Shown here piece by piece: positions 34,300 to 42,394 of a DNA stretch of 64,000 bases (positions within the stretch are counted from its first letter, which is position 1; each line of letters starts with the position of its first letter). The stretch is from Patescibacteria group bacterium (GTDB lineage Bacteria > Patescibacteriota > Gracilibacteria > UBA1369). The notes beneath the pieces are model-generated. The model saw only the letters and a list, made by a program, of their open reading frames with translations. It was not told the DNA's origin and did no database searches. A program made the translations under genes and the position numbers. Location: positions 1 through 64,000 of the forward strand of contig CAUJCM010000004.1 in the NCBI GenBank assembly GCA_963169655.1. Reading direction: 5' to 3'.

Positions 34300-34662
34300 A
34301 TGGAAGAGGGAAATTTAGAAATTTTAGTTGATAATTCTGATTCACGATTTTTACATATTTCTTTAAAAGGAGATTTTGATTCTTATGGTATTAAAGAAAA
34401 GGGAAAGGAATTAACTACTTTGGTTGATAATTTAAAGGAAATGATTTTATTGTTAGATTTATCTGAATTAAATTTTATTAATAGCCAAGGAATTGGACAA
34501 TTACTTAAATTTAGGGAAGGTTTAAGTGAAAAAGGTCAAAAATTAATTATTGTAAATGCAAAGAAAAATGTATTAGACGTTTTAAATGCTATAGGTATTT
34601 TTGAAACGGTCACTTATTTCCAAACTCTCCCTTCATTTTTTAAAAGTTTAGATAATGCTTAG
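34300..34662 (+). CDS. STAS-domain anti-sigma-factor antagonist (second copy)
   Basis: A 120-residue SpoIIAA/RsbV-like protein with LLLDLSELNFINSQGIGQLL, where NSQGIG is the phospho-Ser box, and KLIIVNAKKNVLDVLNAIGIF. It overlaps the PP2C phosphatase gene by 8 bp, so it is the direct partner or substrate of that enzyme. It differs clearly from the copy at 30687-31058, so the two probably have distinct roles, one as switch for the kinase and the other perhaps as phosphatase input. Confidence 0.9.
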   Translation: MEEGNLEILVDNSDSRFLHISLKGDFDSYGIKEKGKELTTLVDNLKEMILLLDLSELNFINSQGIGQLLKFREGLSEKGQKLIIVNAKKNVLDVLNAIGIFETVTYFQTLPSFFKSLDNA

Positions 34663-35812
34663 TTCTCAGCTAAATAAAAAAATTTATGTTCATTTATTTC
34701 TTACAGCAGCTGCAAATTTAATTATTTTTTTGGGGTTGGCTTATATTTTTGAATTTGATAAATTTAATTGGATATTTATTGCTATTTTTGGTGCAGTTTT
34801 ATCCTTGAGTTTATTGATTGTTTATTATGTTGATTTAGTTGTTCCAATTCAAAAGGTTTTAACACAGATTAAAGCAGTTTTAACTCATCGAAAATATAAA
34901 AAGATATTTTCCAAAAGAACTGATGAAATAGGTATTTTTGCTCATTTTTTTAATGAAGTCACTGATAGTTTGGAGAGAGTTACAGATGAATTAGAAGCAA
35001 GTAGGAGAGTTTCAGGAGAATTAAAGACAGCTGGACAACTGCAAAAAGAATTGATTCCTATTTTAGCTCCTAAAATTGATGGTTTTGATATTGCAGTTAA
35101 AAATAGACAAGCTGAAGAATTAGGTGGTGATAATTTAGATTTTATTAAAGTGGGTAATTCGACTTATTTTTATGTTGGAGATGTGACAGGTCATGGTATC
35201 CCTGCTGCTATTGTGATGACAATGGTTAATACTTTGATCAATGCTTTTGCTGAAATTTATGATAGTGCTTATGATATTGTTGTAAATACTAATAGACGTT
35301 TAAAAAGTCGTATTCGGTCAACAATGTTTATGAGTATGTTGATGTTGAAATGGAATGGCTTAACAAAAAAAATGTCTTTTGTTGGTTGTGGCCATGAATA
35401 TTTGATTGTATATCGCTCTAAAACTGGTTTAGTGGAAGCTACTGTTAGTGGAGGAATCGCTTTAGGTATGGTTCCTGATAATAGTAAAATTGTAAAGGAA
35501 CAAGATATTAGTCTTTCTACTGGTGACATTATAGTTTTATATAGTGATGGTATTACTGAAGCAAGAAATATGAAGGGTGAAATGTTTGGTATTGATAGGT
35601 TAAAAGAATTGGTAGGTTTGTATGGAGGACTTGGTGATGCACAAAGTATTATTCAAAATATTGCTAAGGATTTTTCAAAATTTGTTGAGGAACATGTACA
35701 AGAAGATGATGTAACATTGATTATTGTTAAAAGGCTTGAAGATGGCGCTGAAGGTAAGGCTTCTGTTGATTTAAAACAGGAGAGATGGACTGATGAACCA
35801 GAGAAAGATTAA
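34655..35812 (+). CDS. Membrane SpoIIE/RsbU-type PP2C phosphatase
   Basis: A 385-residue Ser phosphatase. Two N-terminal membrane segments (about 10-30 and 38-60) flank a very short outside loop, followed by a HAMP-like stretch (PIQKVLTQIKAVL) and a coiled coil (about 95-130). The PP2C domain has EELGGDNLDFI, VGDVTGHGIPAAIVM, GHEYLIVYRS, LYSDGITEARN and EDDVTLIIVKR, with the metal-binding Asp residues present. It would dephosphorylate STAS proteins and so activate the switch. The lack of a large sensor domain suggests that membrane state or the HAMP-like region is the input. Confidence 0.92.
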   Translation: MLSSQLNKKIYVHLFLTAAANLIIFLGLAYIFEFDKFNWIFIAIFGAVLSLSLLIVYYVDLVVPIQKVLTQIKAVLTHRKYKKIFSKRTDEIGIFAHFFNEVTDSLERVTDELEASRRVSGELKTAGQLQKELIPILAPKIDGFDIAVKNRQAEELGGDNLDFIKVGNSTYFYVGDVTGHGIPAAIVMTMVNTLINAFAEIYDSAYDIVVNTNRRLKSRIRSTMFMSMLMLKWNGLTKKMSFVGCGHEYLIVYRSKTGLVEATVSGGIALGMVPDNSKIVKEQDISLSTGDIIVLYSDGITEARNMKGEMFGIDRLKELVGLYGGLGDAQSIIQNIAKDFSKFVEEHVQEDDVTLIIVKRLEDGAEGKASVDLKQERWTDEPEKD

Positions 35813-35862
35813 TTGATTTTTTTTTAGATTTTAGTAAGAATCAATTAACTTAAGATTTGATT

Positions 35863-36876
35863 ATGTTAGTTAATGATTTTGATTTTGATCTGCCAAAAAA
35901 ATTAATAGCAAATAAACCTGTGGATCCAAGAGATTATGCTAAGTTGCTTGTTTATAATCGAAATGATTACACTATTAAATATGATAAATTTTTTAATTTA
36001 GATAAATATTTAAGCGAGAATGATGTTTTAATTTTTAATAACTCAAAGGTTTTACCTGCAAGAATTGTTTTTCCTTTTAAAAATTCTTTTGCGGAACTAT
36101 TACTATTGGAATTTGAAAATGGGTTGTGGAAAGCTTTAGTGAAGCCAGGAAAGAAATTTAAAATTGGAGAAATTATAGAATGTTATGATATTAAATTTAT
36201 TGTTAAGGGTATCATACAAAATGGAATAAGATTATTAGACACTCAAGCTAATTACCAAGATGTTTTAAATTTAATGTTAAAAAATGGAGAGATGCCTATT
36301 CCTCCTTATATTTCTGGTAAAGATTTTATTAATGAAGATTATAATACAGTATATGCAAAGTATTTAGGTAGTGTTGCAGCTCCAACAGCTGGTTTGCATT
36401 TTACTAATTCTTTAATTAATAAATTACAATCTAAAGGGATATGTATAGAATTTGTAACTTTACATGTTGGACTTGGTACATTTTTGCCAATTAAAACTGA
36501 AGATACTAAATTTCATATAATGCATAGTGAAAATTATTTTATCGACTATTTTACGGCAGACAGACTAAATAAATATAAAAAATCAGGCAAAAATTTAATT
36601 TCTGTTGGGACAACTAGCGCGAGAGTGTTAGAAGATAATTTTGCAAAATTTGGAAAATTTCAAGAAGGTAATTTTAGTACAAATATTTTTATTGAACCTG
36701 GTTATCAATGGAAAGCCGTAAATTCTTTGATTACAAATTTTCACCTTCCAAAAAGTACTCTTTTAATGCTTGTCGCATCATTAATTGGAAAAGATAATTT
36801 ATTAAAAGTATATAAAAATGCTATTAAAAATGAGTTAAGATTTTTTTCTTTTGGAGATGGTATGCTAATTTTGTAA
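35863..36876 (+). CDS. queA: tRNA preQ1(34) S-adenosylmethionine ribosyltransferase-isomerase
   Basis: Transfers the ribosyl part of SAM to preQ1 in tRNA anticodons to make epoxyqueuosine. The ATG at 35863 is preferred over a TTG at 35857, giving 337 residues. Typical features are DFDFDLPKKLIANKP, VLIFNNSKVLPARI, GEMPIPPYI, YAKYLGSVAAPTAGLHFT, LHVGLGTFLPIKTED and SLITNFHLPKSTLLMLVA. No other queuosine gene is nearby. The 3' end overlaps the convergent fusion gene by 12 bp. Confidence 0.96.
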   Translation: MLVNDFDFDLPKKLIANKPVDPRDYAKLLVYNRNDYTIKYDKFFNLDKYLSENDVLIFNNSKVLPARIVFPFKNSFAELLLLEFENGLWKALVKPGKKFKIGEIIECYDIKFIVKGIIQNGIRLLDTQANYQDVLNLMLKNGEMPIPPYISGKDFINEDYNTVYAKYLGSVAAPTAGLHFTNSLINKLQSKGICIEFVTLHVGLGTFLPIKTEDTKFHIMHSENYFIDYFTADRLNKYKKSGKNLISVGTTSARVLEDNFAKFGKFQEGNFSTNIFIEPGYQWKAVNSLITNFHLPKSTLLMLVASLIGKDNLLKVYKNAIKNELRFFSFGDGMLIL

Positions 36877-39237
36877 CCATTTAGGAATAATTGGTGGTGT
36901 ATTAAAAGTAGAAATATTTTTGATTAATGAAATATCATCAATACTATATTTTCCATGGTACAGGTCTATTAAATTACCTCCATTATTAATAAATTGCGTG
37001 ACTTTTTTAAGCCCACTATAGTAGCAGTAGTCTTTGGTGAAGACACCTGGTTTAGATGTGTCACCTACACCTCTTTTGACTCTTAAACAAATGTCTAACG
37101 CACTTTTATCTGTTAGTTTTAATTGTTTTAATATTTCATAGAGTTCTGTAAAACTATGTTTATCAGCTAGGAAAATTGCTTTAGCAATAATACCTTTATA
37201 ATTTGCCTCATCTTTATCTTGGCTTTGTGATAGCACATTATATACCGCTAATCCTTCTTGAGTTGGTAAATAATTAGCAAACCCATAATTAAATAATTGA
37301 TATTTTTGTTTTCTACCATTTTCACTTGAAATTAAATGTGTTTCTAATTCATGAATTATTAGATCTTTAACCCTTTGTTCACTAAAAAATGAGTTTGCTT
37401 TTATTGAAATTTTTTTTGTTTTACTGACTATACATTTGGCAATCATTTTTTCTTTGATTACGATTTTCCAATTATAAATTCCATATTCATGTAAAGTTTT
37501 TTCAAATGTTTCCTTTAATTGTTCTGATGTTATTTCTTGTTGTTTTGTGGTTTTAGATTTTGTTTTTTCTATGATATTTTGATTTATATCTTCAATTTCT
37601 TCTTTAGTTGGAAAACCTAAAAATGATTTAGATAAAAATGTGAGATCACTTGATCCTCTAGCGTTAATTAAATTTAGATAATTATTTAATTCTTCAATTT
37701 TTCTTTGAAATAACATACCAAGATCACTACTATCATAACGTATTTTATGTAGATCTTTTTGCAGGTTTTCAGTTATATCATTATTAAATTGATATCTAAA
37801 TTGCGGATTATAAAAATGATTTTGATTGAATTTTTCTATTTCTTGTTTGAAATTTAATGGTCTAAAATAACTTAAAAATTTGAGCTGGCCTGCTATTTTA
37901 CAAATTTTTCTATCTGTTTCTAATGGATTATAGTTTGCAATAAATAAATTACTTTTTCCTTGAGAATTTTCAGTGAGTATATTGTTTATTGATGTATCAA
38001 TAAGAAATTGTCCACTTAGATCTTTTCTACCTAAAATTATTTGATATTTCTTTTTAATATTTTTTTCAATTTGAAAAATAGAAATAAACTTTTTGCCAGC
38101 TAATTTAAATTTTAATTGAAAATGAGTTTGAAATATATCTTTTTGTCTTTTTGATTTAATTAAACCTAATCTTTTAGCTAAATCAATACTGATATAGTTT
38201 TTTTTACGAGTAGTATTAATATATGCAATTGTTGGAAAAACCTGCTTTTGATGAAGAATATCAACTGTTTCATATAAACCAATTACTTTTTTACCTGTAA
38301 TTGATCTAACATTTTTTTCTACAGTATGACCGAATAAATCCTTGGCTAATCTTACACCCTTTGCTGTTGTAGTGACTTGAATTTCTGCTACTTTTTCTAA
38401 TCTTTTTTTTAAGGGGGCCATATTTGCTAGCTGAATACCAAGTCCTGCTCTTGCATTTATTTCTAATAATACAGGTCCCTGATGTTTATCAATAGCAATA
38501 TCAGCACCCATATATCCGAGATTTGTAGCTAGCTGTGCTTTTGTTGCAATTTGCAGTATTTCATCCCAATATGGAATTTTAATACCTTTAATTGGTCCAA
38601 AGCCTACTATCTCTTTTATTATCTGATTATGGTGAATAGCATGTGTTATTTCTCCTTTGGCCATATCAATTCCAGCGCCAACAGCTCCTTGATGTAAATT
38701 TGCTTTTCCACTAGATTCTTTTGTGGGTATTCGAAGCATTGCCATGACGGGTACTAAATTGTGAACAATGATTCTAATATCTGGAAGGCCTTTATAGGAA
38801 AATTGGCTTAAAATATCGTCACTAATAATTAATTTTTCAATTAAAACTTGATCTTTTTGTCCACTTAAAGAGTAGTTGCCATTAATAATATTATAAAAAT
38901 GCTCTATTATTTCTTCTAAACTATACTCTTGATTGTCAGTGCCAATAAAAATTTCTTTTTTTCTACCTGTTATAGGAATTATTCCTCCCCCACCAAATCC
39001 TTTATTAGGTTTAATTATAAATTCATTTGGAAGATAATTATAATTAAACTTTGTAAGTTCTTTCTGGTTTTTGATAACAGTGAGTAATTTTGGTACAGGA
39101 ATATTTCTAGCAGATAAAAAGGCTTTTGTTTTTACTTTATCATCAGCCATTTCGATGCTTTTTTTCTTATTGTATGGACCTATATATAATAGATTTCTTG
39201 CATTAATACCAAGAACTCCTTTTGAATCAAATAGCAT
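36865..39237 (-). CDS. ATP-grasp ligase / retropepsin-like / DUF1704 metallopeptidase fusion
   Basis: Three domains in 790 residues. Residues 1-285 are an alpha-L-glutamate-ligase-like (RimK-related) ATP-grasp: GINARNLLYIGPYN, the nucleotide loop KGFGGGGI (79-86), and the metal-binding LLEINARAGLGIQ (258-270). Residues 313-420 resemble the RimB-type retropepsin-like protease that accompanies such ligases (ILGRKDLSGQFLID), but the catalytic DTGA is INTT, so it is probably inactive. Residues 430-790 are DUF1704 (QEGLA/MATCAP family) with zinc motif HELETH (629-634) and QEGLA (660-664). Its start overlaps the 7TM gene stop (TAATG), so translation is coupled. The likely theme is adding and trimming amino acids on a peptide or cell-envelope substrate; the substrate is unknown. 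Confidence 0.88.
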   Translation of the reverse strand: MLFDSKGVLGINARNLLYIGPYNKKKSIEMADDKVKTKAFLSARNIPVPKLLTVIKNQKELTKFNYNYLPNEFIIKPNKGFGGGGIIPITGRKKEIFIGTDNQEYSLEEIIEHFYNIINGNYSLSGQKDQVLIEKLIISDDILSQFSYKGLPDIRIIVHNLVPVMAMLRIPTKESSGKANLHQGAVGAGIDMAKGEITHAIHHNQIIKEIVGFGPIKGIKIPYWDEILQIATKAQLATNLGYMGADIAIDKHQGPVLLEINARAGLGIQLANMAPLKKRLEKVAEIQVTTTAKGVRLAKDLFGHTVEKNVRSITGKKVIGLYETVDILHQKQVFPTIAYINTTRKKNYISIDLAKRLGLIKSKRQKDIFQTHFQLKFKLAGKKFISIFQIEKNIKKKYQIILGRKDLSGQFLIDTSINNILTENSQGKSNLFIANYNPLETDRKICKIAGQLKFLSYFRPLNFKQEIEKFNQNHFYNPQFRYQFNNDITENLQKDLHKIRYDSSDLGMLFQRKIEELNNYLNLINARGSSDLTFLSKSFLGFPTKEEIEDINQNIIEKTKSKTTKQQEITSEQLKETFEKTLHEYGIYNWKIVIKEKMIAKCIVSKTKKISIKANSFFSEQRVKDLIIHELETHLISSENGRKQKYQLFNYGFANYLPTQEGLAVYNVLSQSQDKDEANYKGIIAKAIFLADKHSFTELYEILKQLKLTDKSALDICLRVKRGVGDTSKPGVFTKDYCYYSGLKKVTQFINNGGNLIDLYHGKYSIDDISLIKNISTFNTPPIIPKWLQN

Positions 39238-40010
39238 TAATTTTGTTTAAAGATTAGTTTCCTGAATCGGATTATTTCTGTAAGGCGTAAACCTGTGTAT
39301 TTCCCAATCAAAAAAGTAATAAGAATTATTAGCAGATTTATTTCAGGAATAGTTTGTAATATATTTTTTAAAATACTAATTTCTATGAAACTTTGAGATG
39401 TGGTCCAATAATAGATTTTTCCTCCTAATAATAGAAAATTTAATGTAATAAATATAAAATATTTAATAAGTATGTTAAAATCATTTTTAATATTTTTGAA
39501 TGAAGTTTTGATATCTACAAATTTTTCATTAATTATACTAATGATAATAATACTGATAATGAAAAACGGCCCAGTATAAAGATTAAAAATATTAGTTTTA
39601 GCTAAAATAGGTAAGGTTAATATTGAAAATAAAGAAATGATTGAAATTATTAAGGAGGATTTTACTGCAAGATGAATATGTAATGATTTTATTATATATT
39701 TAGCTGTGTAAATTATTAATAGACTAATTAAAAGTAGTCCAATAGTTAGATAAAGACCCAAAATGAATGTATTTATGATTAAGATAATAGGTATGTAATG
39801 ACCGGGTATATTGACTCCTAAAATAATGTTAAAGAAAGCTAGAGTTAATCCAATAAATGGTAATATTTCTACTAAATAAATAATATCTTGAGATATTCCG
39901 ATATTTAATAAAGAGTTGATTGATAAGGATAAAATCCCCGTAAAACTAAAAATAATAAGTAAGAGTATTAAGGTGATTAAACTTGTAATTTTTAATATTT
40001 GCGCTTTCAT
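39237..40010 (-). CDS. Seven-TM protein of the glutamate-ligase neighbourhood
   Basis: A 257-residue membrane protein with about seven hydrophobic helices and a conserved-looking loop GVNIPGHYIPIIL, resembling the 7TM domain that elsewhere is fused to an inactive transglutaminase and sits next to alpha-L-glutamate-ligase-like genes. The transglutaminase part is missing. The ATG at 40010 is preferred because a TATAAT lies just upstream; the open frame extends to 40067 with residues that look non-coding. It is translationally coupled to the fusion gene, so the two almost certainly work together at the membrane. Confidence 0.72.
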   Translation of the reverse strand: MKAQILKITSLITLILLLIIFSFTGILSLSINSLLNIGISQDIIYLVEILPFIGLTLAFFNIILGVNIPGHYIPIILIINTFILGLYLTIGLLLISLLIIYTAKYIIKSLHIHLAVKSSLIISIISLFSILTLPILAKTNIFNLYTGPFFIISIIIISIINEKFVDIKTSFKNIKNDFNILIKYFIFITLNFLLLGGKIYYWTTSQSFIEISILKNILQTIPEINLLIILITFLIGKYTGLRLTEIIRFRKLIFKQN

Positions 40011-40019
40011 ATTGTTGCT

Positions 40020-40025
40020 ATTATA
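40020..40025 (-). promoter_or_regulatory. -10 box for the 7TM/fusion operon
   Basis: TATAAT on the minus strand ends 9 bp before the ATG at 40010, so the transcript would have a leader of about two or three bases. The -35 (TATATA at 17 bp) is weak. Confidence 0.45.
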
Positions 40026-40112
40026 GGTGCTTTCTTGTTTAGTATATATAAAAACTAGTGAAAACAAAACAATTAAGTGATTATTATAATTGTTTTAATT
40101 TATGTGTGATAT

Positions 40113-40168: not shown

Positions 40169-42394
40169 ATGTTTTTGACCAAAACAGATAAAGTTATCAA
40201 GATTTCTATTATAAATTTTATGTTATTGGCTTTTTTAAGCTCAATTAACTTGGTTTACGCAAAATCTTTACCGGTTGTGTTGGGACTTGATGGTATTGCA
40301 GGGCAATCAACACAAGTTAGAATAGAAAATTTTAATTCTGATGAGATTGTTAATATTACAGTTACTAAGCCTGATAATTCTAATTTAATGTTTTCTACAA
40401 AGGCTGATAAAGCTGGTAATGCTGTTATTGAGTTGTATGATTATCATTTACAAAAAGCTGGTATTTATTATGTGTCTGCAGAATCAGTTGATAAAAAGCT
40501 AAAAACAAATAAAAATAGTTTTACGATTTTTGCTGGTGCTTTAGATGTTAATAAATCCATTTTGACAACTGAAAGGGCTGTTATCAAAGCTGATGGTATG
40601 GACCAAGCTAATGTTTCGGTAGTAGCACAAGATTATTATGGAAATTTACTAGACGGACATTCCATTAAGTTAGTTTCTACCGATAGAAACGCTGTAATTT
40701 CTCCTTCCATCATTCATACTGATAAAAAAGGTTTTGGTACTTTTAAAATATCTAATAATAAGGAAGGGATTATTACTTTAATGGCTTTAGACTTGGCAGA
40801 AAGTGAAGTTTTGAATAGTAGAATTGATTTATCTTTTGTTAATTCTAATAAATTTTTGGCTGATGCTGGAGGTGATTTTATTAAAGTTGCCTATGCGGCT
40901 GGTCCGATTGCAGGTTTTAAGATAGATAAGATACCTTCTAATATTAAAGCTAATCAAAATGTATCTTTTGATGTAGTTGCAGTTGATGCTGATGGAAGTA
41001 CTGTTCAAGATTATACTGGTACCATAAGATTTTCTGCTGAGGGTGAGAATAGTTCTGGGGTAAATTTACCCTCTAACTATAAATTTTTAGATTCAGATCT
41101 TGGTAAACACACTTTTAACTTAGGCCTTAGTTTTGTAGAAAAAGGCACATATAAGTTAGTTGTAAGTGCTGTAGATGATAAATTTAAGAAAGGAGAAGTA
41201 ACTGTCGTAGTTGGTGATGGCTCTACAAATTCATTAAATAATGGAGATTTAGGAAATAAGCCAATTATTAATTCGCCTATTGCCGGTACTTATAGTCAAT
41301 CAAAACAGACAATTTCAGGAATTGCTTCAGCTAATTCTCAAATTAAAGTGTATGATAATGGACAAGAAGTTGGTGTTGCTACTACCTCACCTGCAGGAAA
41401 ATTTACTTTAGATATTGATGATTTATCTGATGGTAATCATTCTTTATATGTTACAAGTACAGATATTATTACTTTGTCTGTGTTAGGAACTTCTGATGCT
41501 GTTGAATTTAAAATTGATACTACCGCTCCTAAAATTGATGATATTCAATTTGACCCAATGACTGGAATTAAAGCTGGCTCTCCTATAAATGTGTCTGTAT
41601 TTAGTGAAAAGAATTTAGCTCAAGCTGCTCTTATTTTTAATTATGATATTATTCCTTTAACAGCTAGTTTAAATGACCCTTCTGTTTATGTAGGTACTTT
41701 TCAGGCTCCACTTGAGAAAGGTGTTTATAAATTGAATGTTCTACTTGTAGATGAGTTACAAAACGAACAGACTTATGAAAATCAAGCCACGGTGTCTGTA
41801 ACAGGTGAAGGTGCAGCGGTAGCAAAAGGTGATAACGAGCCTAAAGTTGTTTCTCCTCAAGACAACAATAGTACTTCAACAAACAGCCAAAATAATACAA
41901 ATAAAGGGGAAGTTGTTGGTGCTCCATCGCAAGTAACTGGTTTAATTGCTTATGGATCTGATAAAAGAGTTACTTTAGTTTGGGATGCTGCAATTGATGA
42001 TAATTTAGTTAAAAATTATAAAGTTTATTTTGGAGATGATGTGAGAAATATAAATAGAGAAGTAAATACTAAGGATGCAAGTACTACTTGGTATATTCCT
42101 GAACTTGAAAATGGCAAGGAATATTTCTTTGCAGTGTCAGCTATTGATGATGAAGGAAATGAAAGTGCAGTTAGAAGTGAAATTGTGAGTGGAATCCCTT
42201 TTACTTTAGAAATTAATAATGCTCTTTCAAATCATATTCCGACCGAATCTTTAGATAACAAGGATTTACATTCTGCTGCTTATGATGGTCCTTTCCCAAG
42301 TAATTCTCCAAAAACAGGACCTGGTTTGATTTTTGTTATAGGTGGAAGTAGTTTGGCTGGTGCTTATTTAAGTAGGAAAAAGACAAAAAAGTAA
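40169..42394 (+). CDS. Secreted surface protein with Ig-like and FN3 domains
   Basis: A 741-residue exported protein. The signal peptide spans about 1-31 (ending VYA). Several beta-sandwich modules follow: an invasin/Big-1-like domain (about 125-220, with KADGMDQANVSVVAQDYYGN), a further Ig-like module (about 245-345), a Big-type module after INSPIAGTYSQSKQTISG, and one starting DTTAPKIDDIQFDP. A Ser/Asn/Thr-rich linker precedes an FN3 domain (about 590-680). The C-terminus, SPKTGPG plus a hydrophobic segment and RKKTKK, is a sorting-type signal with SPKTG instead of LPxTG. It is probably exposed on the cell surface and used for adhesion. Confidence 0.85.
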   Translation: MFLTKTDKVIKISIINFMLLAFLSSINLVYAKSLPVVLGLDGIAGQSTQVRIENFNSDEIVNITVTKPDNSNLMFSTKADKAGNAVIELYDYHLQKAGIYYVSAESVDKKLKTNKNSFTIFAGALDVNKSILTTERAVIKADGMDQANVSVVAQDYYGNLLDGHSIKLVSTDRNAVISPSIIHTDKKGFGTFKISNNKEGIITLMALDLAESEVLNSRIDLSFVNSNKFLADAGGDFIKVAYAAGPIAGFKIDKIPSNIKANQNVSFDVVAVDADGSTVQDYTGTIRFSAEGENSSGVNLPSNYKFLDSDLGKHTFNLGLSFVEKGTYKLVVSAVDDKFKKGEVTVVVGDGSTNSLNNGDLGNKPIINSPIAGTYSQSKQTISGIASANSQIKVYDNGQEVGVATTSPAGKFTLDIDDLSDGNHSLYVTSTDIITLSVLGTSDAVEFKIDTTAPKIDDIQFDPMTGIKAGSPINVSVFSEKNLAQAALIFNYDIIPLTASLNDPSVYVGTFQAPLEKGVYKLNVLLVDELQNEQTYENQATVSVTGEGAAVAKGDNEPKVVSPQDNNSTSTNSQNNTNKGEVVGAPSQVTGLIAYGSDKRVTLVWDAAIDDNLVKNYKVYFGDDVRNINREVNTKDASTTWYIPELENGKEYFFAVSAIDDEGNESAVRSEIVSGIPFTLEINNALSNHIPTESLDNKDLHSAAYDGPFPSNSPKTGPGLIFVIGGSSLAGAYLSRKKTKK

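Follow-up and report, generated by a model that had tools for sequence, protein, structure and literature searches.

Can a single bacterial polypeptide both write and erase amino acid chains, and why would it carry a dead protease between its two enzymes? These questions are raised by a 790-residue protein encoded in the first 64,000 nucleotides of contig CAUJCM010000004.1 (GenBank assembly GCA_963169655.1; hereafter the window), from a Patescibacteria group bacterium with a genome of 1.02 Mb. The protein joins an ATP-grasp domain, a degenerate retropepsin domain and a DUF1704 metallopeptidase domain, and its gene overlaps that of a seven-transmembrane (7TM) protein. This three-part make-up, which an earlier note on this DNA had proposed, was borne out by Pfam, NCBIfam, Foldseek and AlphaFold. 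With somewhat better than even confidence, we read the locus as a membrane-coupled polyglutamate writer-eraser in one polypeptide, the Patescibacterial form of an rlo/rim kind of system.

The N-terminal domain matched ATPgrasp_ST (PF14397) over residues 14-284 (E = 1.8e-69) and TIGR02291 in a full-length alignment (E = 2e-88), although its 296 bits lie below the curated cut-off of 314. Ten ATP-grasp residues (K38, K76, E134, D153, R155, R169, D246, E259, N261 and R263) were invariant in 43 aligned fusions, and the full-length AlphaFold model matched the RimK poly-alpha-L-glutamate synthetase 5zct in the PDB (E = 2.5e-9). Fold and intact catalytic residues are those of the RloC-type ATP-grasp of rlo-type systems and of a RimK-type polyglutamate ligase alike, and the domain probably adds glutamate chains.

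At the other end, Pfam recognized MATCAP, formerly DUF1704 (PF08014), over residues 470-776 (E = 7.5e-46; 157 bits against a cut-off of 27), and the NCBIfam QEGLA family TIGR02421 matched with E = 2e-47, under its curated cut-off. Human MATCAP, found by phmmer (E = 5.5e-14), provided the sole PDB chains matched by sequence, and MATCAP 7z5g was the best PDB match of the full-length model (E = 1e-11), whose predicted template modelling score (pTM) is 0.50 and from which we make no claim about domain contacts. The HELETH and QEGLA motifs reported earlier were confirmed as H629-ELET-H634 and Q660-EGLA; QEGLA aligns with the EEG of MATCAP, and a KRG...DTS.PG region is common to both. The KRG motif, HExxxH and the distal Glu were invariant in the 43 fusions. 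With HExxxH, a distal Glu ligand and domain-wide similarity all present, the domain appears to be an intact, functional-looking metallopeptidase related to the human enzymes that trim tubulin glutamate chains.

A Pfam search of the middle domain gave no match. Its AlphaFold model (pTM 0.78; predicted local distance difference test score 86) had as its best PDB match by Foldseek the RloA of P. fluorescens (9g58; E = 1.7e-5), followed by DDI1 retroviral-protease domains, RloA2 and Legionella 2pma. Families were found for both ends and an RloA fold for the middle, so that the earlier note's own reservation, that the middle and C-terminal parts might resemble neither retropepsin-like nor DUF1704 families, falls away. 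Alignment with intact homologues revealed INTT, with N341-T-T at the catalytic position, in place of the DTGA of an active peptidase, as had been stated, and the flap was lost as well. In the 43 fusions, G403 of this domain is invariant, and D406 and L407 are near-invariant. No second retropepsin, in the form of a PF05618 protease, was found elsewhere in the same genome.

The 7TM gene and the fusion gene overlap in TAATG, where the stop TAA and the start ATG have one base in common (...AAATTAATGCTA...), and the 7TM gene lies directly upstream in 143 of the 151 loci with enough flank, which bears out the coupling proposed from the sequence. The likely start of the 7TM frame is the ATG at 40010. 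Its product scored 19.9 bits against 7TM_transglut (PF14402; E = 5.5e-4), just under the cut-off of 25; upstream genes in the equivalent position in relatives score 90-98 bits, and an RloB-type 7TM gene thus adjoins the ATP-grasp, as in rlo operons. The product in most fused relatives has about 490-500 residues, with a PKD ectodomain followed by the 7TM part. A comparison of positions 39237-40067 of the window with loci L002, L003 and L004 (about 490 residues in L004) showed that the RloB-like gene of the window genome, like that of its two nearest relatives, has lost the ectodomain, leaving open frames of 250-285 residues. Four fused loci with sufficiently long flanks (L055, L056, L058 and L076) had no recognizable 7TM gene nearby.

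A survey of candidate phyla radiation genomes, as the earlier note had proposed, yielded 77 non-redundant loci with the three-domain fusion, spread over Peregrini-, Peri-, Gracili- and Magasanikbacteria. Most of the order shares the complete fusion, at 35-57% identity, as do more distant genomes (Gracilibacteria, Magasanikbacteria), though nine of 13 members of the same family lack it; among named collections, Candidatus Peregrinibacteria and Peribacteria come closest to the window. An unfused form occurs in Moranbacteria, Kerfeldbacteria and other Patescibacteria: there the 7TM gene is followed by an ATP-grasp-retropepsin fusion of about 430-510 residues without DUF1704. In this form the retropepsin is intact: the motif reads DTGA or DSGA, a flap segment of type SSHGxSxRP is present, and PF05618, the family name of RimB-like proteases, recognizes the domain weakly. 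PBP1A-type genes recur beside this form.

Loss of the DTGA motif was associated with DUF1704. Motifs were counted over 154 loci from which near-copies had been removed, using a broader DUF1704 profile; a first, narrow profile had missed the divergent domains of loci L086, L088 and L092, and the broader one changed the locus classes and brought out a counterexample, L088. D[TS]GA was present in all 55 loci whose fetched stretch held no DUF1704 gene (two more loci, cut by a contig end and of the fused type, stand outside these 55) and in none of the 77 fused loci, 41 of which had lost the catalytic Asp. Where a DUF1704 gene is adjacent, 7/12 loci retained the motif and the remaining five read NTG or NTS; where it lies farther off, 5/8 retained it. 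In a tree of the ATP-grasp domain the loss fell in several places, and a single origin was rejected by the approximately unbiased (AU) test (p = 0.001); the motif was lost at least two independent times, on each occasion where the locus contains DUF1704. The tree also showed the fusion arising twice (L156 and L157 versus the main clade); we do not claim this, since the AU test did not require it (p = 0.22).

The pattern fits an order of events in which DUF1704 arrives as a neighbor and the retropepsin then decays, with or without gene fusion. We tentatively propose, with confidence somewhat short of even, that a MATCAP-type metallocarboxypeptidase took over more than once from an aspartic protease as the polyglutamate eraser of a membrane-coupled system, the fused form being a writer, a dead reader or activator and an eraser in one chain. 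If this is true, the family that includes the animal tubulin deglutamylases would trim glutamate chains in bacteria too.

In such a system the ATP-grasp domain would use ATP to join L-glutamate residues, probably into poly-alpha-glutamate, either on an acceptor or as a chain of their own, and the DUF1704 zinc carboxypeptidase would trim the chains from their C-terminus. The middle domain would descend from an aspartic protease of the RimB/RloA kind whose catalysis and flap were lost once DUF1704 had entered the locus, and would persist as a module without catalysis that most likely activates or guides the ligase, as RimB does RimK. The co-translated RloB-like 7TM protein may tether the cytoplasmic enzyme to the membrane and pass a product or signal across it. 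The residue handled is most likely glutamate, because RimK makes poly-alpha-L-glutamate, which RimB cleaves, RloA cleaves it too, in runs of at least eight Glu, and the human DUF1704 relatives TMCP1 and TMCP2 of the MATCAP family shorten tubulin glutamate chains (PMC11957791; PMC12239564; PMC10499314). In Pseudomonas, loss of the RloA proteases is rescued when rloB or rloC is deleted (PMC12239564), the outcome to be expected if a writer and an eraser are in balance, with RloB and RloC making what RloA must remove. The earlier idea that one polypeptide adds and removes residues thus gains support by analogy, with glutamate as the probable residue to be specified. That the protease is dead was confirmed by its lost motif and flap; its suggested role as a binder is plausible, and the finding that RimB stimulates polyglutamate synthesis by RimK (PMC11957791) points to something more specific.

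Several observations weigh against this reading. The glutamate substrate, the two activities, the activating role and the membrane role are all drawn from homologues, and human MATCAP1 removes tyrosine too, so that specificity for glutamate is not assured. Secreted RloA acts in the periplasm; hydropathy revealed no hydrophobic transmembrane or signal segment in the fusion, so its trimming would have to be cytoplasmic. The obvious acceptor does not fit: ribosomal protein S6, the target of RimK, ends in the window genome in ...EEKEAEKAEK (L207:1483-1854), with a C-terminal Lys and no C-terminal Glu, and is therefore not favored, and the genome contains no run of eight Glu codons that could supply an encoded polyglutamate substrate. 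Nor is the exchange of erasers strict, given the intact retropepsins beside seven of the 12 adjacent DUF1704 genes and given L088 (L088:4980-7823), a fused protein of 948 residues with an intact DTGA and a divergent MATCAP domain (HEVIH), in which both erasers are apparently intact in one chain; this locus is not among the 154, having been removed as a near-copy. In a pairwise phylogenetic sign test, the independent pairs were too few to prove the correlation.

Ligase and peptidase might instead act on another bond or amino acid, such as a peptidoglycan stem, a surface-peptide tail or a small-molecule peptide, which would make the locus an editor of envelope peptides. ATPgrasp_ST and TIGR02291 are named without a tested substrate, ATP-grasp relatives with other amino acids (LysX, ArgX, Ddl, PsnB) are among the PDB matches, the PKD ectodomain is frequent on the 7TM partner, and PBP1A-type genes accompany the unfused form; Pseudomonas rlo mutants, too, show cell-shape and cell-wall drug phenotypes. 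However, polyglutamate is the substrate or product of all three nearest characterized relatives (RimK, RimB/RloA and TMCP/MATCAP), and we hold envelope editing to be rather unlikely. A lower probability still attaches to the view that DUF1704 has an unrelated partner, that its fusion reflects mere co-regulation and that the retropepsin drifted as a dispensable domain. Such independence would suit the DUF1704 genes that stand beside other ATP-grasp genes (Aminobacter) or alone in other contexts, as well as the several Patescibacteria in which DTGA and DUF1704 occur together, whereas it does not readily explain why the degenerate domain is folded in the model, keeps its conserved residues and is retained in nearly all fusions, or why DTGA losses are confined to loci with DUF1704. 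As for the idea that separate genes were joined by an error of annotation or assembly, two genomes (G160 and G102) do have split or shortened parts, but dozens of genomes from different sources have the frame without a stop, and the contig of the window is 293 kb long. That recurrence rules out mis-assembly, which the earlier note had named as a danger, or chance, and the probability left to an artefact is negligible.

The nearest characterized counterpart of the proposed writer-eraser is the rlo operon of Pseudomonas aeruginosa (PMC12239564, 2025), which comprises the polyglutamate retropepsin RloA, the 7TM/inactive transglutaminase protein RloB and the ATP-grasp protein RloC and affects osmotic tolerance, biofilm and drug sensitivity; Legionella has an rlo-type trio of genes side by side. 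The window shares with it a RimB/RloA-fold retropepsin, an RloB-type 7TM protein and a cytoplasmic TIGR02291-type ATP-grasp. RloA, however, is active and secreted, whereas the retropepsin of the window is cytoplasmic, fused and dead (INTT, no flap, no hydrophobic signal or transmembrane segment), DUF1704 is present in addition, and where RloB has its transglutaminase-like ectodomain the 7TM protein has PKD in relatives and nothing in the window. Since two defining features, the active secreted retropepsin and the transglutaminase ectodomain, are missing, we do not file the locus as an rlo operon. RimK-RimB and the RimBK hybrids (PMC11957791) likewise combine an ATP-grasp glutamate ligase with a retropepsin, in one chain in the hybrids, but there RimB is active and N-terminal to RimK, and neither DUF1704 nor a 7TM protein is present.

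MATCAP/TMCP1-2 (KIAA0895L, KIAA0895; PMC10499314) share the HExxxH and EEG/QEG metallopeptidase motifs and the KRG...DTS.PG region with the fusion; unlike it, they are eukaryotic, act on tubulin tails and are not joined to a ligase. The TIGR02421 QEGLA proteins of Proteobacteria belong to the same peptidase family, and in Aminobacter the gene stands between those of an N-formylglutamate amidohydrolase and a glutathione-synthetase-like ATP-grasp protein; there it is a separate gene, with no 7TM protein or retropepsin. The earlier note knew of no described system with this exact make-up, and no description of the fusion or the eraser swap was found in the literature searched, which left out the 2009 amidoligase survey (Iyer et al.); the trio of 7TM protein, ATP-grasp and retropepsin and the RimB-RimK hybrids were, however, already known. 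What is new is that DUF1704 is fused and that, linked with this, the retropepsin has lost its active site. Fusion and protease decay together bear on the substrate of rlo and on the role of bacterial DUF1704/QEGLA proteins, both directly testable, and provide a prokaryotic setting for examining the ancestry of the tubulin deglutamylases.

Table. Features of the fusion locus, in positions of the window
Feature	Position	Strand	Basis
Fusion gene, 790 residues: ATP-grasp, degenerate retropepsin, DUF1704/MATCAP	36865..39237	-	Open reading frame, Pfam/NCBIfam, AlphaFold model
RimK/RloC-type ATP-grasp ligase domain, residues 5-305	38323..39225	-	PF14397, TIGR02291
Degenerate RimB/RloA-type retropepsin domain, residues 313-418	37984..38301	-	Foldseek; alignment with intact DTGA homologues
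N341-T-T where catalytic D-T-G is expected	38209..38217	-	Alignment with intact homologues
DUF1704/MATCAP metallopeptidase domain, residues 450-790	36868..37890	-	PF08014, phmmer
HELETH (HExxxH) zinc/catalytic motif, residues 629-634	37336..37353	-	H629, E630, H634 invariant in 43 fusions
QEGLA motif, residues 660-664; E661 is third zinc ligand	37246..37260	-	E661, G662, A664 invariant in 43 fusions
7TM gene, RloB-like membrane part only, without ectodomain	39237..40067	-	Weak PF14402, hydropathy segments, alignment and same position as PKD+7TM proteins of relatives
TAATG stop/start overlap (translational coupling)	39235..39239	-	Sequence
Divergent Ig/fn3 surface protein, sortase-like C-terminus	40169..42394	+	Big_1, Big_13, fn3 (Pfam)

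The 3' end of the fusion gene converges on queA with an overlap of 12 bases (queA stop at 36876). The genes for a STAS protein and a SpoIIE phosphatase (34300-35812) and queA (35857-36876) neighbor the fusion again in about 6-10 loci. Relatives of the divergent Ig/fn3 surface-protein gene adjoin the fusion in eight fused loci, a recurrent neighborhood that raises the possibility that the surface protein is a client of the fusion system.

Among the unfused loci of Moranbacteria, the 7TM/ATP-grasp-retropepsin pair leads clusters of additional RimK/YheCD-like ATP-grasp genes (L104:6361-9395 and L082:6415-9489) that lie downstream of ruvC and yebC and contain a PBP1A-type gene and sometimes a separate DUF1704 gene. 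A protein of 922 residues (L198:1411-4176) combines the ATP-grasp and an intact retropepsin with a second ATP-grasp domain (PF02655), and a related protein of 856 residues in L199 has a C-terminal part without a recognized family.

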